A stretch of DNA of 56,495 nucleotides, taken from contig CALWBB010000003.1 in the NCBI GenBank assembly GCA_944375885.1, positions 1 to 56,495 on the forward strand, read 5' to 3'. Below are positions 44,101 through 52,051 of this stretch, piece by piece. The stretch is from an uncultured Merdimonas sp. GTDB lineage: Bacteria; Bacillota; Clostridia; Lachnospirales; Lachnospiraceae. The notes beneath the pieces are model-generated. The model was given only the letters and a program-made list of their open reading frames with translations, ran no database searches and was not told the origin of the DNA. Every line of letters starts with the position of its first letter. Position 1 is the stretch's first letter. Position numbers and translations under genes: made by a program.

Positions 44101-45081
44101 TCAATCGGAAAGACTCTCCCGCTCCTTCCATCCGCAGGAGATTGCCCCGGCGGGGCAGGCCTTTTTGCAGAGTCCGCAGCGGATGCATTCTGGGTCGTTG
44201 GAATTTTTCACAGGATCACAGTTCATCTTGCAGGCCCTGGCGCAGGCCCCGCAGCTTACGCATTTGTCCGGGTCTGTCCGGTACCGGAAGACCGAGATGG
44301 GGTTAAACACCGAGTAGACCGCGCCCAGCGGGCAGAGATACTTGCAGAAGGGGCGGTAAATGACGATGGAGGCTAAGATGATAGCGCTCAGCAGCACATT
44401 CTTCCAGGCGTAGAGCCAGCCAATGGCGCTTCGCATGGCAGAATTTAAGAACACTAAAGGAATGCCGCCCTCCAGCGTGCCTGCGGGGCAGATGAGCTTG
44501 CAGAACCAGGGAGAACCCTGGCCCAGGATGTCTGTGAGGAACATGGGCAGCAGGATCACAAAGAGGATCAGGATGGCGTATTTCAGCTTCCGCAGCAGCC
44601 TGTCACTCCGGAAGGTCCGCAGCTTTTTCGGGAAAGGGATCTTGTGAAGCAGATCCTGGATGAGGCCAAAGGGGCACAGGAAGCCGCAGACGAAGCGCCC
44701 CACGAGGGCTCCCACGAAAATCAGGAAGCCGGATACGTAGAAGGCCCACTGGTAATTCCGGCTCCCGATGACTGCCTGCAGGGCGCCGATGGGACAGGAT
44801 CCCAGGGCGCCCGGGCAGGAATAACAGTTGAGGCCGGGGACACACAGGTTTTTCAGTTTTCCCTCATAGATTCTGCCCTGGAGAAAGCCGGCCAGGTAGC
44901 TGTTGGTGATAAGGGCCCAGAGAAGCTGGATCCCGTGGCGGGGCCATTCGCTGGGCTGGCGGCCTGTTTTCCCAGCCAGCTTTTTCTTCTGGTTTCCTTC
45001 CTTATCTGATTTTTTATCCCACTTCTTATTTGACACTTTAACTGATGTCTTATCAATGTCCTTGTTTAATTCTTTATCCAA
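44101..45081 (-). CDS. NapH-like membrane polyferredoxin (4Fe-4S)
   Basis: A 326-residue membrane electron carrier. A basic N-terminus is followed by about four to five membrane helices. Cysteine motifs in loops include NCYSCPGALGSCPIGAL, CGFLCPFG and CKYLCPLG, and two C-terminal ferredoxin motifs are CVSCGACARACKMNC and CIRCGLCKKACPAG. It starts with TTG eight bases inside the 52-residue CXXC gene. It probably carries electrons between the cytosol and the lipoprotein thioredoxin outside. Confidence 0.88.
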   Translation of the reverse strand: MDKELNKDIDKTSVKVSNKKWDKKSDKEGNQKKKLAGKTGRQPSEWPRHGIQLLWALITNSYLAGFLQGRIYEGKLKNLCVPGLNCYSCPGALGSCPIGALQAVIGSRNYQWAFYVSGFLIFVGALVGRFVCGFLCPFGLIQDLLHKIPFPKKLRTFRSDRLLRKLKYAILILFVILLPMFLTDILGQGSPWFCKLICPAGTLEGGIPLVFLNSAMRSAIGWLYAWKNVLLSAIILASIVIYRPFCKYLCPLGAVYSVFNPISVFRYRTDPDKCVSCGACARACKMNCDPVKNSNDPECIRCGLCKKACPAGAISCGWKERESLSD

Positions 45082-45232
45082 TTCCGATACACTCCATACA
45101 GATTCTTACCGCTTTTTCAAAGACGATGTCCATCTCGCCCCGAAAGACGCCGTATCCCATCAGGCAGAGGCCGGCAGCCGCCAGAAGAAGGCCGATCCGC
45201 CGGGAACGGCCTTGAAGACCAGGGCGGCTCAC
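45074..45232 (-). CDS. CD1871A family CXXC motif protein (52 residues)
   Basis: A very short gene starting with GTG that overlaps the thioredoxin stop (GTGA) and whose TAA overlaps the polyferredoxin start. One hydrophobic helix (IGLLLAAAGLCLMGYGVFRG) is followed by EMDIVFEKAVRICMECIGIG, with the CMEC pair at the end. This matches the small CXXC proteins found next to thioredoxin and polyferredoxin genes in Clostridia. A membrane redox relay is inferred. It is easily missed by gene callers. Confidence 0.85.
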   Translation of the reverse strand: MSRPGLQGRSRRIGLLLAAAGLCLMGYGVFRGEMDIVFEKAVRICMECIGIG

Positions 45233-45909
45233 TGGGCCGCCTCCAGAGCTTCCAGCTCCTGATTTACGATTTCCGTCCAGTCCTCCAGGGAACGGCTGCC
45301 TGTGTAGACGTTTCCTACCAGGTTCCCGTCACTGTCCACGAAAAAGGAGGTGGGAACGGCCTGGACGCCGGTGAGAAGGCCATTCATCAGCCCGGCGTCT
45401 GGGATCAAGAAGGGATAGGTGGCGCCCGTCTCCTCCGCCAGAAGCTTGGCGGTTTCCAGGGCCTCCGGGTCGGCCCCGCCCTCGCCGTCAGCAGTGTCCA
45501 GCACGATGCCGACCACATTGACGCCCTTATCCTTCATGTTCTGGTGGAGCTCCTCCAGGTCGGGGATCTCCCGGATGCAGGGAGAGCACCAGGTGGCGAA
45601 GACATTCACGAAGGTCAGGTCATAATCGGCGAAGCTGTTTTCGGTGAAGAGATTGCCGTCGATATCCTCCATGGAAAAGCTTCCAAGAGGGATCGGATCC
45701 CGGCTTTCGGTTTCCGCAGCGGATTCTTCCTCTGCGCCGTTTTCCTCTGCGGAATCGGCAGAAGAATCTGTGTCAGCTGCGCTTTCGCTGTTTTCTTTCG
45801 CTGCCGGACTGTCTCCGGAGCCTTCCTTAGAAGAGCAGGCGGCCAGGAGCGTGCCAAAAAGCAGGATGGAAAGGAAAAGAATCAGGTTTTTTCTCATTTT
45901 GCGTTTCAT
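45229..45909 (-). CDS. TlpA/ResA-like thioredoxin lipoprotein
   Basis: A 226-residue protein with a lipoprotein signal (FGTLLAACSS, Cys at about residue 25). An acidic, serine-rich linker runs to about residue 70. The thioredoxin fold has the active site TWCSPCIREIP and cis-proline segment QAVPTSFFVD. It acts outside the membrane as a reductase or oxidase of disulfides. It is first in an operon with the CXXC protein and the polyferredoxin, which would feed it electrons. Confidence 0.93.
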   Translation of the reverse strand: MKRKMRKNLILFLSILLFGTLLAACSSKEGSGDSPAAKENSESAADTDSSADSAEENGAEEESAAETESRDPIPLGSFSMEDIDGNLFTENSFADYDLTFVNVFATWCSPCIREIPDLEELHQNMKDKGVNVVGIVLDTADGEGGADPEALETAKLLAEETGATYPFLIPDAGLMNGLLTGVQAVPTSFFVDSDGNLVGNVYTGSRSLEDWTEIVNQELEALEAAQ

Positions 45910-46043: not shown

Positions 46044-46128
46044 AGAGACTGTATGGCTCTTGTTTGGGCTAGACATAAATGATTTGGAGCAGCTGTGTAA
46101 AACATGATTCCGTCGTGAGGTGAAGTCT

Positions 46129-47622
46129 GTGAATTTTGACATTTCTCAATTTGATTCTTATCGGGAAGATAACCGCAGAGAAGTTAAAAAGGCCCAGGGA
46201 GGAATCCCTTTGTCGCTGTGGGAAACGTATTCTGCTTTTGCTAATTGTTATGGCGGAGTCATTATCTTAGGCGTGAAAGAAAATAAGGACGGAAGCTGGC
46301 AGATGACAGGTTTGGAAAACGCTTCAAAGCTTCGGAAGGATTTCTGGGATACAGTTAACAATAAAAATAAGGTTTCAGTAAATCTGCTGACAGACAATGA
46401 TGTGGAGATATTTGAAGAAAACAGCGGCGTCATAATGGTTATCCACGTACCAAAGGCAAAGCGTGAACAGAAGCCGGTATATATAAATGGAGATATGTTT
46501 AGCGGCACTTTCCGCAGAAACTGGGAGGGAGATTATCATTGTGACCGCGGCGAAGTGCTTGCTATGCTCCGGGATCAGCCGGAAGAAACCACAGACATGA
46601 AAATCTTACAGGATATGCCTCTTGATGTTCTTAATTCAGAGACCGTACATGCCTATCGCAACAGGCATATGGCGTATCGGACAGAACACGTGTGGGAAAG
46701 GCTGAGTGATGAAGAGTATTTGGAGAGAATAGGGGCTGCGAAGCTGTCTGCCAGAGACCATACTTTACATCCCACGGCTGCCGGCCTTCTTATGTTTGGA
46801 GAAGAGTATAAGATTTTATATGAATTTCCTGAGTATTTTCTTGATTATCGGGAAGATCTCGATCCGACAATCCGTTGGACGGACAGGCTGCAGTCCAGCT
46901 CAGGCGATTGGACGGGGAATCTGTTTGATTTTTTCTTCCGGGTTTACGGGAAGATAGTGAAAGATCTGAAAATTCCTTTCAAGCTGGAAGGAATAACCCG
47001 TATAGATGATACTCCTGTACACAAGGCGTTGAGAGAAGCTTTAGCAAATTGCATCGTAAATACAGATTTTTATTTTCCGAGAGGGATTGTGATTCGGAAG
47101 GACACGGAGTCTATTGTAATGGAGAACCCGGGAAGCATTCGCACTGGGAAACAGCAGATGTTGAAAGGCGGTATTTCAGATCCGAGAAATAAGGCTTTAA
47201 TGAAGATGTTTAATCTTATCGGCATTGGAGAGAGGGCTGGCAGCGGGGTTCCAGATATATATGCCGTGTGGGATTCGCAGGGATGGAAGGAACCGGAGGT
47301 AGTAGAAGAATATGGGCCTGATAGAACAATCCTGAAATTATCTTTTTTGAAAAAAGCGGCGATAAAAAATGGCGATAAAAAAATGGCGATAAAAAACGGC
47401 GATAATGATTCTGTAAACCCCAAGACGGCGCAGCAATTAGAAAGAATTCTTAAGTATATGGAATCAGAACGAGAGTATAGAACAAAAGAAATGGCAGAAA
47501 TCCTTGGTGTAAAGGAGTCCAGAGCGAGGGCGCTGATAAGTGAACTTGTCAAAAGGGGAAAGGTACAAGCGATAGGGAAGAATAGAGGCCGCAAATACAA
47601 AAAGACGGAAAGAGGCATTTAG
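46129..47622 (+). CDS. Schlafen-AlbA_2 / ATP-binding / winged-helix protein, copy 2
   Basis: A protein of 497 residues from the GTG at 46129, which follows GTGAGGTGA; a GTG three codons earlier is possible. The AlbA_2 part is at about 15-125 (LWETYSAFANCYGGVIILGVKEN). The ATPase-like part holds HKALREALANCIVNTDFYF and IGIGERAGSGVPDI, and a winged helix ends the protein (EMAEILGVKESRARALISELV). The linker contains an AIKNGD repeat encoded by A-rich units of 13, 14 and 13 bases. It is only distantly related to copy 1. It ends directly before the GTPase-nuclease gene and is more AT-rich than it, so it may have joined the operon later. Confidence 0.82.
   Translation: MNFDISQFDSYREDNRREVKKAQGGIPLSLWETYSAFANCYGGVIILGVKENKDGSWQMTGLENASKLRKDFWDTVNNKNKVSVNLLTDNDVEIFEENSGVIMVIHVPKAKREQKPVYINGDMFSGTFRRNWEGDYHCDRGEVLAMLRDQPEETTDMKILQDMPLDVLNSETVHAYRNRHMAYRTEHVWERLSDEEYLERIGAAKLSARDHTLHPTAAGLLMFGEEYKILYEFPEYFLDYREDLDPTIRWTDRLQSSSGDWTGNLFDFFFRVYGKIVKDLKIPFKLEGITRIDDTPVHKALREALANCIVNTDFYFPRGIVIRKDTESIVMENPGSIRTGKQQMLKGGISDPRNKALMKMFNLIGIGERAGSGVPDIYAVWDSQGWKEPEVVEEYGPDRTILKLSFLKKAAIKNGDKKMAIKNGDNDSVNPKTAQQLERILKYMESEREYRTKEMAEILGVKESRARALISELVKRGKVQAIGKNRGRKYKKTERGI
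47369..47414 (+). repeat. A-rich tandem repeat inside the AlbA_2 gene
   Basis: GGCGATAAAAAAT, GGCGATAAAAAAAT and GGCGATAAAAAAC follow each other, then GGCGATAATG. The A-runs are six, seven and six long and the units are not multiples of three. Loss or gain of a unit or an A would remove the C-terminal winged helix. Confidence 0.8.
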
Positions 47623-50376
47623 ATGGCACAAGCATCTTTGAAGCATAAACAGAAAAACTTCTCCCGCCGGGTGACGCTGGGTATCATCGCTCACGTAGAC
47701 TCCGGGAAGACGACCCTGGCGGAGGCCATGCTCTACCAGTGCGGCAGCATCCGCCGGGCCGGGCGGGTGGATCACGGAGACGCCCATATGGACAGCCACG
47801 AGCTGGAGCGGGCCAGGGGAATTACGATCTTTTCCAGCCAGGCGGAGCTTGTCCTGGAAAAGCCGGGGAAAACGCCGGGCTGCGAAGAGGAAGAGCCCAT
47901 CCGGGCCGCACTTCTGGACACGCCGGGCCATGTGGATTTCTCGGCGGAGATGGAGCGGACCCTGTGGATTCAGGACTACTGCATCCTGGTCGTCAGCGGG
48001 GCGGACGGCGTCCAGGGTCATGTGCGGACGCTCTGGAGGCTTTTGAAGCAGCAGCGGATCCCGGTCTTCCTTTTTATTAATAAGATGGATCAGCCGGGGA
48101 CGGATCGGGAAGCCCTGATGCGGGAGCTGCGGGCGGAGCTGGACGAGGGCTGCGTGGATTTCTCAGCGGAGCGGGCAGACAGCGAGCTGTGGGACGACCT
48201 GGCAGTCTGCGACGAGGAGCTTCTGGAGGCTTTTCTGGAGAACGGAGAGCTGACAGACGTCGAGATCGCCCGCAAGATCGCGAAGCGTCAGGTCTTTCCC
48301 TGCTATTTTGGGTCGGCGCTTCGGGGCACGGGCGTGAAAGAATTTCTGGAGGGGCTGGGGCGCTTCCTGATTTGCCCGGAATACCCGCAGGAATTCGGAG
48401 CCAGGGTCTATAAAATAGGAAGGGACGCCTCCGGGAACCGCTTAAGCTTTCTCAAGGTGACGGGAGGAAGCCTGAAGGCCCGGCAGGTTCTGACAGGAGA
48501 GACAGACGGGGAGGCCTGGGAGGAGAAGGCGGATCAGCTGCGGCTCTATTCCGGGGGAAGCTTTCAGCCTCTGAATGAAGCCCCTGCCGGAGCGGTCTGC
48601 GCGGTGACTGGCCTTTCCCGGACGCGGGCCGGAGAGGGGCTGGGCTTCGAGGCGGACGGCCCGGTTCCGGAGATGGAGCCTGTGCTGACCTACCAGCTTC
48701 TGCCGCCGGAGGGCAGCAATGTCCACGAGGTGATCGCCAAGCTGCGGCTTCTGGAGGAGGAGCTGCCGGAGCTTCATGTGGTCTGGAGGGAGGAACTCTC
48801 GGAGATTCATGTGCGGGTCATGGGCCAGGTGCAGCTGGAGATCCTGAAAAGCCTGATGGAGGAGCGGTTTGGCTTCACGGTGGATTTCGGGCCGGGAAGT
48901 ATTGTATATAAGGAAACGATTACGAACGCCGTGGAAGGCGTGGGACATTTCGAGCCCTTGCGGCATTACGCGGAGGTACATCTTCTGCTGGAGCCGGGAG
49001 CGCCGGGCAGCGGCCTGGTATTTGAAAGCCGCTGCAGTGAGGATGTGCTGGATCGGAACTGGCAGAGGCTGATTCTCACCCATTTGCAGGAGCGGAGCCA
49101 TCCGGGCGTGCTGACGGGCTCGGATATCACGGATATGAAAATCACGCTGCTGTCGGGAAAATCCCATCCGAAGCATACGGAGGGCGGGGATTTCCGGCAG
49201 GCCACCTACCGGGCGGTGCGCCAGGGCTTAAAGCAGGCGGAGTCTGTCCTTCTGGAGCCCTTTTATGATTTCCGCCTGGAGGTGCCGCCGGATCGGATCG
49301 GCCGCGCCATGACGGATCTCCAGAAGATGGGCGGAAGCTTTTCGGAGCCTGAGCAGGAGGGAAGGCTGATGCTGCTCACCGGCTCAGCGCCGGTATCGAA
49401 GCTGCAGGATTACGGCTCGGAGGTCACAGCCTACACCAGGGGCGAGGGACGCTTCTCCTGTGTGCTGGGCGGCTATTACCCCTGCGCGGAGGCGGCGGAG
49501 GTGATCGCGGCCTCGGGCTACGATTCGGAGCTGGACGCGGCCAATCCCACAGGATCGGTGTTCTGCGCCCACGGGGCGGGCTTTTACGTGCCCTGGAACC
49601 AGGTCTTTTCCTATATGCACCTGGACAGCGCCCTGCAGCCAAAGAGGGAAGAGGCCCATGCGGGGCTGGCATCCGCCAGGCAGAGCCGGGCGTCCCTGGG
49701 AGCTGCCGATCCCAAGGAGCTGGAGGAAATCTTTGTGCGCACCTACGGGCCCATCCGGCGGGACCGCCAGGGAGTGGGGCGCAAAGAGCGGGTCTTTCAG
49801 CCAGAGCCCCAGGAGGAGCCCGTGCGGAAAATCAAGAGCCGAAAGGGGCAGAAGGAGTATCTCCTGGTGGACGGCTACAATATCATTTTCGCCTGGGACG
49901 AGTTAAAGGAGCTTTCGGAGATCAATCTGGAATCGGCCAGAGGACGGCTTCAGGATATCCTCTGCGATCTGCAGGGTGCCCTTGGCTGCACGGTGATCCT
50001 GGTGTTCGACGCCTACCGGGTGGAGGGAAACCGGGGAGAGATATTTCAGTACCACAATATCCATGTGGTCTATACGAAGGAGGCAGAGACGGCTGACCAG
50101 TACATCGAGAAGACGGTTCATGAGATCGGCCGGAAGCACCGGGTGACGGTGGCCACCTCAGACGCACTGGAGCAGGTGATTATCCTGGGCCAGGGGGCGG
50201 CCCGGCTGTCCGCGGCCGGCCTTCATGAGCTGGTGCAGCTGACGAAGGAGCAGCTTCGGGAGACCATTTCCCAGAGAGAGACGGGCGGGAAAAACTACCT
50301 GTTCGAGCAGCTCTCCGGGGAGACGAAGCGGCTGATAGAGGAGATTTGTAAGGGAAAGGAAGAGGAGACTACCTAG
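47623..50376 (+). CDS. Tet(M)/EF-G-like ribosomal GTPase fused to a YacP/Rae1-like NYN nuclease
   Basis: A 917-residue protein. GTPase motifs are complete: AHVDSGKTT (23-31), RGIT (65-68), DTPGH (99-103), NKMD (153-156) and GSAL (230-233). EF-G-like domains II-V follow. APVS at 589-592 corresponds to the Tet(M) loop (YSPVS, from memory) that reaches the decoding centre. After a basic linker (about 708-743) an NYN nuclease domain runs from 745 to about 885, with acidic residues D750, D796, D825 and D847. B. subtilis YacP (Rae1) cuts mRNA in the ribosomal A site. The ATG follows the AlbA_2 stop with no gap, and DUF4317 follows with no gap. A ribosome-targeted nuclease is inferred. Confidence 0.88.
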   Translation: MAQASLKHKQKNFSRRVTLGIIAHVDSGKTTLAEAMLYQCGSIRRAGRVDHGDAHMDSHELERARGITIFSSQAELVLEKPGKTPGCEEEEPIRAALLDTPGHVDFSAEMERTLWIQDYCILVVSGADGVQGHVRTLWRLLKQQRIPVFLFINKMDQPGTDREALMRELRAELDEGCVDFSAERADSELWDDLAVCDEELLEAFLENGELTDVEIARKIAKRQVFPCYFGSALRGTGVKEFLEGLGRFLICPEYPQEFGARVYKIGRDASGNRLSFLKVTGGSLKARQVLTGETDGEAWEEKADQLRLYSGGSFQPLNEAPAGAVCAVTGLSRTRAGEGLGFEADGPVPEMEPVLTYQLLPPEGSNVHEVIAKLRLLEEELPELHVVWREELSEIHVRVMGQVQLEILKSLMEERFGFTVDFGPGSIVYKETITNAVEGVGHFEPLRHYAEVHLLLEPGAPGSGLVFESRCSEDVLDRNWQRLILTHLQERSHPGVLTGSDITDMKITLLSGKSHPKHTEGGDFRQATYRAVRQGLKQAESVLLEPFYDFRLEVPPDRIGRAMTDLQKMGGSFSEPEQEGRLMLLTGSAPVSKLQDYGSEVTAYTRGEGRFSCVLGGYYPCAEAAEVIAASGYDSELDAANPTGSVFCAHGAGFYVPWNQVFSYMHLDSALQPKREEAHAGLASARQSRASLGAADPKELEEIFVRTYGPIRRDRQGVGRKERVFQPEPQEEPVRKIKSRKGQKEYLLVDGYNIIFAWDELKELSEINLESARGRLQDILCDLQGALGCTVILVFDAYRVEGNRGEIFQYHNIHVVYTKEAETADQYIEKTVHEIGRKHRVTVATSDALEQVIILGQGAARLSAAGLHELVQLTKEQLRETISQRETGGKNYLFEQLSGETKRLIEEICKGKEEETT

Positions 50377-51561
50377 ATGAACAAAAAAGAGATATCCGAG
50401 ATCAAAAAGCAGCTGACGCCGGAGAACTGCGCGCTTACGCGCCTCTGCGCCTGCTACGTGGACGGTGAAAAGAATAAAAAGACTGAGATGAAGGAGGCCT
50501 TTCTCTCCCAGTCGGAGGAGGAATGCTTTAAATATTTTGAGATTTTCCGAAAGAGCCTGTCGGGGACGGTGGGGAAAAACCTGATCAATCTGGAGTTTCC
50601 GCTGGACGCGGAGCTGGAGGGCGGGGCCCAGGAATTTCTGCTGCGCCTCCGGGACAGCCGCCTGAAGGATGATGAGCTTCTGGAAGAATTTTATGACAAG
50701 GTGATAGAAAGCTTCGAGTACGGAGAAAATTATCTGATTCTCCTGGTTCACGGAGCCTATGACATACCAGGGAAGGCCTCGGACAACGAGGAGATGTTCG
50801 ACGCCTCCGACGAGGTCTACGAGTACCTGCTCGGCGCGGTCTGTCCGGTGAACCTGTCCAAGGCCGGCTTAAGCTACGATGCGGAGAACAACCGCTTCGG
50901 CTCCCGGGTGCGGGACTGGCTGGTGGAACTTCCGCTGGCAGGCTTCCTTTTCCCGGCCTTCCAGGATCGGAGCACGGATCTCCACAGCATGCTCTATTAC
51001 TCCAAGAACCCGGAGGAGCTGCGGGAGGGCTTCGTGCAGGGACTTTTCGGCTGCGGCACGCCCCTGTCCGCCGGGGATCAGAAGGAGACGTTTAACGCCA
51101 TGATCGAGGAGACCCTGGGCGAGGACTGCGATTACGAGGCGGTCCGCAATATCCACGAAAAGCTCCAGGAGCTGGTGGAGGAGCGGAAAGACGAGCCGGA
51201 GCCTCTGGTGCTCGACAAGGCAGAGGTGAAGCAGCTTCTGGCGGTCAGCGGCGTGGATGCGGAGAAGTTCGAGGAGCTGGAGGAGCGCTATGAGGAGACA
51301 GCCGGGGCCCAGACAGAATTTCTGGCCTCCAACGTGCTGAACATGAGAAAATTTGAGATCAAGACGCCGGATGTGGTGATCCAGGTCAACCCGGAGCGGC
51401 CCGACCTGGTGGAGACCCGGGTGATCGACGGCCGGCAGTGTCTGGTGATCCCGGTGGACGATTCCGTGGAGGTCAACGGGATTTCCGTGCGGGCGCTGAG
51501 CAGAAGGGCCTGCGGGAAGGAAATAGAAAAGGAAATAGAAAAGAGGGATTGGGATGCGTGA
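50377..51561 (+). CDS. DUF4317 family protein
   Basis: A 394-residue cytoplasmic protein of a Clostridia family with unknown function (MNKKEISEIKKQLTPENCALTRLCACYVDGEKNK pattern at the start, in pieces; DIPGKASDNEEMFDASDEVY in the middle). It is acidic and has no signal or membrane segment. The ATG directly abuts the GTPase-nuclease stop, with GGAAGAGGAGA upstream. The C-terminus (KEIEKEIEKRDWDA) overlaps the GreA-like start by eight bases. Its position suggests a partner of the ribosome-directed protein, but this is only inference. Confidence 0.85.
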   Translation: MNKKEISEIKKQLTPENCALTRLCACYVDGEKNKKTEMKEAFLSQSEEECFKYFEIFRKSLSGTVGKNLINLEFPLDAELEGGAQEFLLRLRDSRLKDDELLEEFYDKVIESFEYGENYLILLVHGAYDIPGKASDNEEMFDASDEVYEYLLGAVCPVNLSKAGLSYDAENNRFGSRVRDWLVELPLAGFLFPAFQDRSTDLHSMLYYSKNPEELREGFVQGLFGCGTPLSAGDQKETFNAMIEETLGEDCDYEAVRNIHEKLQELVEERKDEPEPLVLDKAEVKQLLAVSGVDAEKFEELEERYEETAGAQTEFLASNVLNMRKFEIKTPDVVIQVNPERPDLVETRVIDGRQCLVIPVDDSVEVNGISVRALSRRACGKEIEKEIEKRDWDA

Positions 51562-52051
51562 GCAGCTGACAAAGCAGGATGTGCAGAAGATTGAGCAGGA
51601 GATTGAGCACCGGAAGCTGGTGGTGCGCAAGGAGGCCATCGAGGCCGTAAAGGAGGCCCGCGCCCAGGGAGACTTAAGCGAAAATTTTGAATATTACGCG
51701 GCCAAGCGGGAGAAGAACCAGAATGAGAGCCGCATCCGCTATCTGGAGAGAATGCTCAAGACGGCGCGGATCATCGAGGATGACGCCAAGGCGGACGAGA
51801 TCGGCCTCAATACCCGCGTGGAGCTTTATTACGAGGATGAGGAGGAGACGGACTGGGTGAAGCTGGTGACCTCCATCCGCGGCAACTCCATGGAGGGGCG
51901 GATCAGCATCGAGTCGCCTCTGGGAAAGGCTATCCTGGGCCATAAGGCCGGGGATCGGGTTCATGTGACGGTGGGAGACGGAGGCTACGACGTGGTGATC
52001 CGCTCCATCGAAAAGGACGCCGGGGACGAAGATGAGATTCGGAAATTTTAG
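51554..52051 (+). CDS. GreA/GreB family transcription elongation factor
   Basis: A 165-residue protein with the N-terminal coiled coil (about 1-80; AQGDLSENFEYYAAKREKNQ, which carries the acidic tip DLSEN) and C-terminal FKBP-like domain (ESPLGKAILGHKAGD). These factors enter the polymerase secondary channel and restart stalled complexes by RNA cleavage. Its place in an operon with a ribosome-directed nuclease links arrest of transcription and translation. It may be the main GreA or a second copy; the window cannot tell. Confidence 0.93.
   Translation: MREQLTKQDVQKIEQEIEHRKLVVRKEAIEAVKEARAQGDLSENFEYYAAKREKNQNESRIRYLERMLKTARIIEDDAKADEIGLNTRVELYYEDEEETDWVKLVTSIRGNSMEGRISIESPLGKAILGHKAGDRVHVTVGDGGYDVVIRSIEKDAGDEDEIRKF

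Follow-up and report, generated by a model that had tools for sequence, protein, structure and literature searches.

An EF-G/Tet(M)-type GTPase fused to a Rae1-type nuclease probably represents a tethered form of Rae1 in Clostridia

Rae1 of Bacillus subtilis has been described as an endonuclease that cuts mRNA in the ribosomal A site (PMC12320835, PMC6613710), as members of the RelE family are also reported to do (PMC12320835), and it has been proposed to enter stalled ribosomes (PMC10100781); its gene is reported to be co-transcribed with the rlmB homologue yacO (PMC6613710). Tet-NYN fusions were noted in ten Clostridiales by Atkinson 2015, where they were read as a possible RNase-based antibiotic resistance (PMC4342817). 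We analysed such a fusion in a stretch of 56,495 nucleotides from an uncultured Merdimonas sp. of the Lachnospiraceae (assembly GCA_944375885.1, contig CALWBB010000003.1, positions 1 to 56,495; the whole of this stretch is called the window here). The gene (47623-50376, + strand, as are all features of the fusion given below) encodes a single protein of 917 amino acids in which an EF-G/Tet(M)-type GTPase body is joined through a linker to a YacP/Rae1 NYN nuclease domain, as judged from the open reading frame and Pfam. We consider it reasonably probable that this protein has taken over the job of free Rae1, with its body seating on ribosomes whose A site is open and its leashed nuclease cutting mRNA there.

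The reading frame starts with ATG and has no internal stop codons. At its C-terminal end Pfam NYN_YacP (PF05991) matches residues 747-908 (E-value 3e-49; 167.7 bits, above the curated cut-off of 24.6), and Pfam, the alignment to Rae1 and the fold together place the domain at residues 745-908 (49855-50346). Four residues aligned as predicted metal ligands, D750 (49870-49872), D796 (50008-50010), D825 (50095-50097) and D847 (50161-50163), are Asp in 47/47 fused and 27/27 stand-alone rows. The VIA-align rows reach model residues 1-659 at most and the NYN part was therefore folded alone; its three best PDB matches are all B. subtilis Rae1 (5mq9/5mq8, E-values 3.7e-12 to 9.1e-12). Judged from its sequence, the nuclease of the fusion is Rae1/YacP by descent.

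The remainder of the chain is a translational GTPase of the EF2 family, with G1-G5 and EF-G domains II-V present. Pfam recognizes GTP_EFTU at residues 16-245 (47668-48357, with G1-G5 and DTPGH intact in the alignment), EF-G domain II at 258-339, III at 352-423, IV at 426-540 (48898-49242, also by alignment) and V at 542-623; the matches to domains II and III fall short of their cut-offs by about 3 bits. The GKT, DTPGH and NKxD motifs are found in 47/47 fused rows, the window counted, and G2 and G5 are near-invariant. An earlier note on this DNA, made from the letters and their translations, had proposed a complete EF-G/Tet(M)-like body with intact G1-G5 and a YacP/Rae1-family NYN domain with four acidic residues, all in one chain, and on each of these points the reading frame, the Pfam matches, the fold and the relatives bear it out. 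The body ends in a C-terminal extension (residues 624-668, 49492-49626) that unfused homologues also have, the majority of them terminating at this point, and the Tet(M) structure 3j9y aligns with the model of the fusion as far as residue 659. The linker (residues 669-744, 49627-49854) has a median length of 75 and a mean identity of 34%, and the model predicts it to be flexible at residues 674-694 and 714-741 (predicted local distance difference test (pLDDT) values <50). Between these lies a short conserved helix (residues 697-708, 49711-49746; alignment and structure model), in which E699 and I703 are present in 47/47 fused rows and T707 in 93%. Mean identity to the window protein among 46 fused relatives is highest in domain IV (79%), 57-65% in the other folded parts and 34% in the linker. 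Working GTPase and nuclease sites, the fold, and a flexible leash with a short helix are all predicted features of this protein. The window protein also has a G-domain insertion (residues 80-92, 47860-47898, KPGKTPGCEEEEP) that is missing in relatives such as P0017 and is modelled with lower confidence.

The fusion chain is present in 15/15 other genomes of the same genus, in open frames of 910-1009 amino acids, and so is not a chance or assembly join; genus, family, class and phylum samples all carry it, so that it is conserved as a unit and, contrary to one refuting condition named in the earlier note, is not confined to this genome. Its NYN domain is the sole YacP domain found in its own genome. 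The family sample comprises 200 genomes, each from a different genus. A YacP domain is present in 180 of them, in a frame of at least 700 amino acids in 163, of <220 in 11 and of intermediate length in 6 (frames of 220-700 were scored as unclear); most genera of this sample therefore carry the fusion, in the manner of a core gene. Among the 196 genomes of a class sample 128 have YacP, 67 fused, 58 alone and 3 unclear, and none has both forms above the cut-off; counted by GTDB family, the fusion occurs in 21, the free form in 23 and both forms in 3. A GTPase-body search that drew on the same 196 genomes gave a match of >250 bits in 67/67 of those with the fusion. In a phylum sample of 249 genomes YacP was matched in 134, with 16 fusions above the cut-off, some of them in other classes. 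Two rows below the cut-off were excluded from these counts, one (G372) from the class count and one (G465, 21.4 bits) from the 16 phylum fusions. By these searches, nearly every YacP-bearing genome sampled has a single YacP domain, in the fused or the free state, and none clearly has the two together.

We fetched 27 stand-alone loci, 20 from the 58 free-YacP class genomes (mixed-state families and strong matches first) and 7 from the family search and the search of same-genus and order-level genomes, and free yacP is flanked by both rlmB and sigH in 19/27, by one of them in 7/27 and by neither in 1/27. The genome of the window has the order cysS-mrnC-rlmB-sigH, with about 68 nucleotides between rlmB and sigH and no yacP there. 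The rlmB loci of 30 other chosen fusion genomes were examined, and in the 16 that have both genes within 1.5 kb no intact yacP lies between them (0/16; the window's genome, the seventeenth, likewise has none). The gap is 10-85 nucleotides in 10 of these 17 and longer in 7. In 3 of the 7 longer gaps a decayed yacP is found in the right place and on the right strand, in G263 (70.1 bits), G391 (39.3) and G348 (35.8), scores that none of 200 shuffles per gap reached; these remnants lie in the fetched loci L120 (2218-2848), L111 (1217-1503) and L119 (2218-2594). The match in the G395 gap is ambiguous (21.9 bits, reached in 3/200 shuffles), and the remnant search found nothing in the remaining three longer gaps. 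G263, a one-contig genome, shares its genus with G297, in which free yacP is intact and the GTPase-body search gives no match at E 1e-30. We read these loci as replacement of yacP by the fusion, caught part-way. The decayed genes make the replacement claim testable without knowledge of the mechanism.

Trees of the two halves are consistent with the idea that the fusion travelled as a unit. In the body tree, from which 8 rows had been omitted beforehand (the EF-G row and 7 nearly identical fused ones), the fused bodies form one clade (Shimodaira-Hasegawa-like approximate likelihood ratio test (SH-aLRT) 100), separate from the unfused homologues and from three rows that resemble ribosomal protection proteins (RPPs). 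The NYN tree has all 74 rows. In both trees the fusions of f2 and f21, families of the window's own order, cluster with those of f31, f45, f46, f50, f72, f76 and f86, families of other orders, close to fused rows from the family to which the window belongs; the NYN-tree version of this cluster holds one divergent f1 row too. Approximately unbiased (AU) tests reject a same-family grouping of fused with free NYN domains for f46, f50 and f45, these groups being GTDB families named after inspection of the tree. Because the cluster recurs in both trees and the same-family groupings are rejected, the fusion seems to have arisen once, spread as a unit from order to order and taken the place of the resident yacP. 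A bolder version, to which we would give rather less than an even chance, is that it was born about once and swept the Clostridia by transfer, each arrival killing the resident rae1, and that residues such as Arg861, on which free Rae1 depends to reach the ribosome unaided, were released once the nuclease was tethered.

A number of observations weigh against this reading or limit it. In the NYN tree the fused domains group together except that one free row (L025) falls inside them, with weak support, and a single NYN clade for all fused rows is barely not rejected (AU p 0.053). R861 (50203-50205) does not vary in 60 free YacP rows but is Leu or Val in 13/47 fused ones, which hints that constraint eased after tethering; by counting on the alignment it corresponds to Arg118 of B. 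subtilis Rae1. As to exclusivity, the fusion genome G078 has a partial second YacP copy at a contig edge, the second YacP match of G372 (21.3 bits, 47 positions) lies below the cut-off, and split or doubled fusion rows are seemingly present in G115, G169, G193 and G212, and also in G369 and G647. The slot could be assessed in only 16 of the 30 rlmB loci, sigH being out of reach in the other 14, one of which (L115) shows a weak NYN-like stretch (E 2.7e-4). The two halves also occur apart. A body match of >250 bits is present in 8/58 free-YacP class genomes (at least 43% identity in G305, G357, G381, G403 and G424; 32-35% in G287, G353 and G383) and absent from 50/58; four order-level relatives (G042, G046, G049, G059) have the GTPase and YacP as separate genes; and five genomes (G267, G272, G299, G315, G418) carry the body unfused and give no YacP row, a sixth, G367, being truncated at a contig end. 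Loci L063-L065, L068 and L069 hold unfused relatives of the body from genomes without a YacP match. Since unfused bodies occur in YacP-less genomes, the GTPase subfamily has an existence of its own, and obligate coupling of the two activities is weakened: each half occurs without the other, so the GTPase would be an aid or regulator of the nuclease, not a condition for it. Domain IV and Rae1, moreover, should compete for the A site. Finally, tmRNA was not securely found in the window's own genome (RF00023 at 25.2 bits against a cut-off of 47; none by ARAGORN in two loci).

With these points in mind, replacement of Rae1 can be put as a sequence of steps. The fusion would spread as a unit by transfer, and the resident yacP would be lost. 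The body would bind the ribosome at the EF-G/Tet(M) site, with domain IV pointing toward the decoding centre. As domain IV and Rae1 would both have to occupy the A site and should not be able to sit there together, we favour turn-taking on the leash, in which the two would alternate there and GTP hydrolysis would probably act as the switch; such a tethered hand-over would suit the flexible linker better. The nuclease on its leash would then cut A-site mRNA, in a manner presumably coupled to the GTPase, and the severed mRNA would be handed to tmRNA/SmpB-type rescue and decay. Ejection of tetracycline by the body is not expected. Given this apparent replacement, the work of Rae1 most likely falls to the NYN part of the fusion.

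The most serious alternative, although we think it unlikely, is that the halves act apart, the NYN domain performing ordinary Rae1/YacP cleavage and the GTPase some translation job of its own, with fusion merely securing their joint expression. That each half is found alone in other genomes is in line with this, as are the length of the linker, its mostly unconserved sequence (34% identity) and the low model confidence on either side of its helix; however, the class sample shows the fused state in 21 GTDB families and the phylum sample shows it in further classes, and the two invariant residues of the linker helix, together with a transferred subclade that both trees recover, speak for one functional unit. 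It is less probable still that the protein serves rRNA or tRNA maturation at or close to the ribosome, with the NYN domain as the processing nuclease and the GTPase as an assembly or recycling factor. Maturation of rRNA and tRNA was the earliest role proposed for YacP-like NYN domains (cited in PMC4342817), and free yacP lies mostly near the rRNA methylase gene rlmB, but the solved relative is Rae1, which is described as an A-site mRNA endonuclease (PMC12320835, PMC6613710).

We rate about as low the reading that follows Atkinson 2015, in which the fusion is a tetracycline-resistance RPP with an added RNase. Some databases do label close relatives of the fusion as tetracycline-resistance proteins, and the earlier note listed APVS, at residues 589-592 (49387-49398), as a loop of its Tet(M)/EF-G-like body; its position is right, but by Pfam and alignment it lies inside domain V, and we reject it as a Tet(M) hallmark and as the drug loop. 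The counterpart in the alignment to Tet(M)/Tet(O) is loop III of domain IV, residues 512-525 (GKSHPKHTEGGDFR, 49156-49197), where the Ser-Pro-Val tip (Ser508-Pro509-Val510) is replaced by Pro-Lys-His in the window. Lys517 and His518 stand at Tet(M) Pro509 and Val510 and are present in 97% and 100%, respectively, of the 47 fused rows; at the position of His515 an EF-G row likewise has a His. Pro509 of Tet(M) is reported to be the loop III residue that overlaps or displaces the drug (PMC7456112, PMC8161019), and since it is Lys in the fusion a role in tetracycline resistance is unlikely on these alignments. The loop sequence alone does not exclude activity, because Tet(M) triple-Ala mutants of the loop III tip are reported to be able to remain active (PMC4750697). 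A closely similar loop III is found in 16 unfused homologues and is therefore a mark of this GTPase subfamily, and the three RPP-like rows from class genomes retain Ser-Pro-Val. None of the NCBIfam RPP models listed reaches its cut-off with this protein: the highest score is 407.9 against 775, and the models for Otr(A), Tet(Q), Tet(M/W) and Tet(M) have lower scores and higher cut-offs. The EF-G model stays below its cut-off too (251.7 against 659.4). In addition, fusion genomes G388, G286, G264 and G273 have separate RPP-sized genes (643-644 amino acids, 28-31% identity), and in G388, the genome whose loops were looked at, both copies keep Ser-Pro-Val. The core-gene-like presence of the fusion in most genera of the family sample also speaks against a resistance gene. 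On its scores and its loop III, resistance was rejected as the principal reading.

The neighbouring genes were considered as functional clues. A gene for a 500-amino-acid Schlafen-type AlbA_2/HATPase_c_4 protein (46120-47622, +) has its stop codon immediately before the start of the fusion, and a DUF4317 gene (50377-52051, +; 538.7 bits) begins right after the fusion stop, followed by GreA. Among the 12 same-genus loci (L003-L014) DUF4317 follows the fusion in 11/12 (the flank of L008 is cut) and GreA in 10/12 (that of L014 is cut too), and neither was seen beside the fusion in any of ten loci outside the genus (L015-L021, L032-L034; the first seven with flanks of at most 1.5 kb), where six neighbours of three fused loci have unlike domains. 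This order was seen within the genus only, and a conserved neighbourhood was rejected as a clue. Farther upstream (44101-45909, -) a NapH-like 4Fe-4S membrane protein is encoded next to a TlpA/ResA-like thiol-disulfide lipoprotein, likely a redox pair. Defence, which the earlier note had also raised, is not supported: a ribosome-bound mRNA nuclease could halt translation and a Schlafen-type AlbA_2 gene abuts the fusion upstream, but an anti-phage or stress-suicide enzyme is the least credible of these readings and was rejected as the main one, since PADLOC gives just one match (mad8, 17.2 bits, partial, in the GTPase part), the fusion takes over from a housekeeping gene across the family sample, and the AlbA_2 gene was seen upstream in only one (L003) of the 12 same-genus loci.

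How Rae1 finds ribosomes is unsettled in the literature covered, and a third of the class sample (67/196) seemingly answers this by bolting it to a GTPase that seats on the ribosome. If this is true, a common gene whose relatives some databases label as tetracycline resistance would be a core mRNA quality-control enzyme, resistome counts from loose Tet models could be inflated, and free and tethered Rae1 would form a natural experiment on A-site nuclease selectivity. The earlier note knew of no described function for the fusion, and indeed no tested function was met in the literature; the architecture itself, by contrast, is already in print (Atkinson 2015, PMC4342817). What we believe to be new, having found no earlier account in the open-licence literature, is the exclusivity of one domain per genome, the slot that is empty or holds a decayed gene, the dissemination by transfer and the arguments against a role in resistance.

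Compared with known systems, the fusion has the same architecture, by its wording, as the Tet-NYN fusions of Atkinson 2015, a paper that predates the 2017 Rae1 paper and whose relevant passages make no mention of replacement of yacP. Like the RelE-type endonucleases it would cut A-site mRNA; those enzymes have an unrelated fold and no GTPase. It differs from EF-G in the rest of loop III (KHTEGGDFR in the fusion) and in falling below the EF-G model cut-off. With Tet(M)/Tet(O) it shares the five-domain GTPase body and the C-terminal extension (26% identity across the 610 residues aligned by structure), but it lacks the Ser-Pro-Val of loop III, scores under the RPP cut-offs and is split from the RPP-like rows in the tree with SH-aLRT 100. 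With Rae1/YacP of B. subtilis (5mq8, 5mq9) it shares the NYN domain, the four acidic residues, the fold and the occurrence of one per genome; B. subtilis Rae1 is a free protein (a chain of 181 residues in the PDB), whereas the NYN domain of the fusion is the tail of a GTPase encoded at another locus, and the fusion is probably Rae1 in tethered form.
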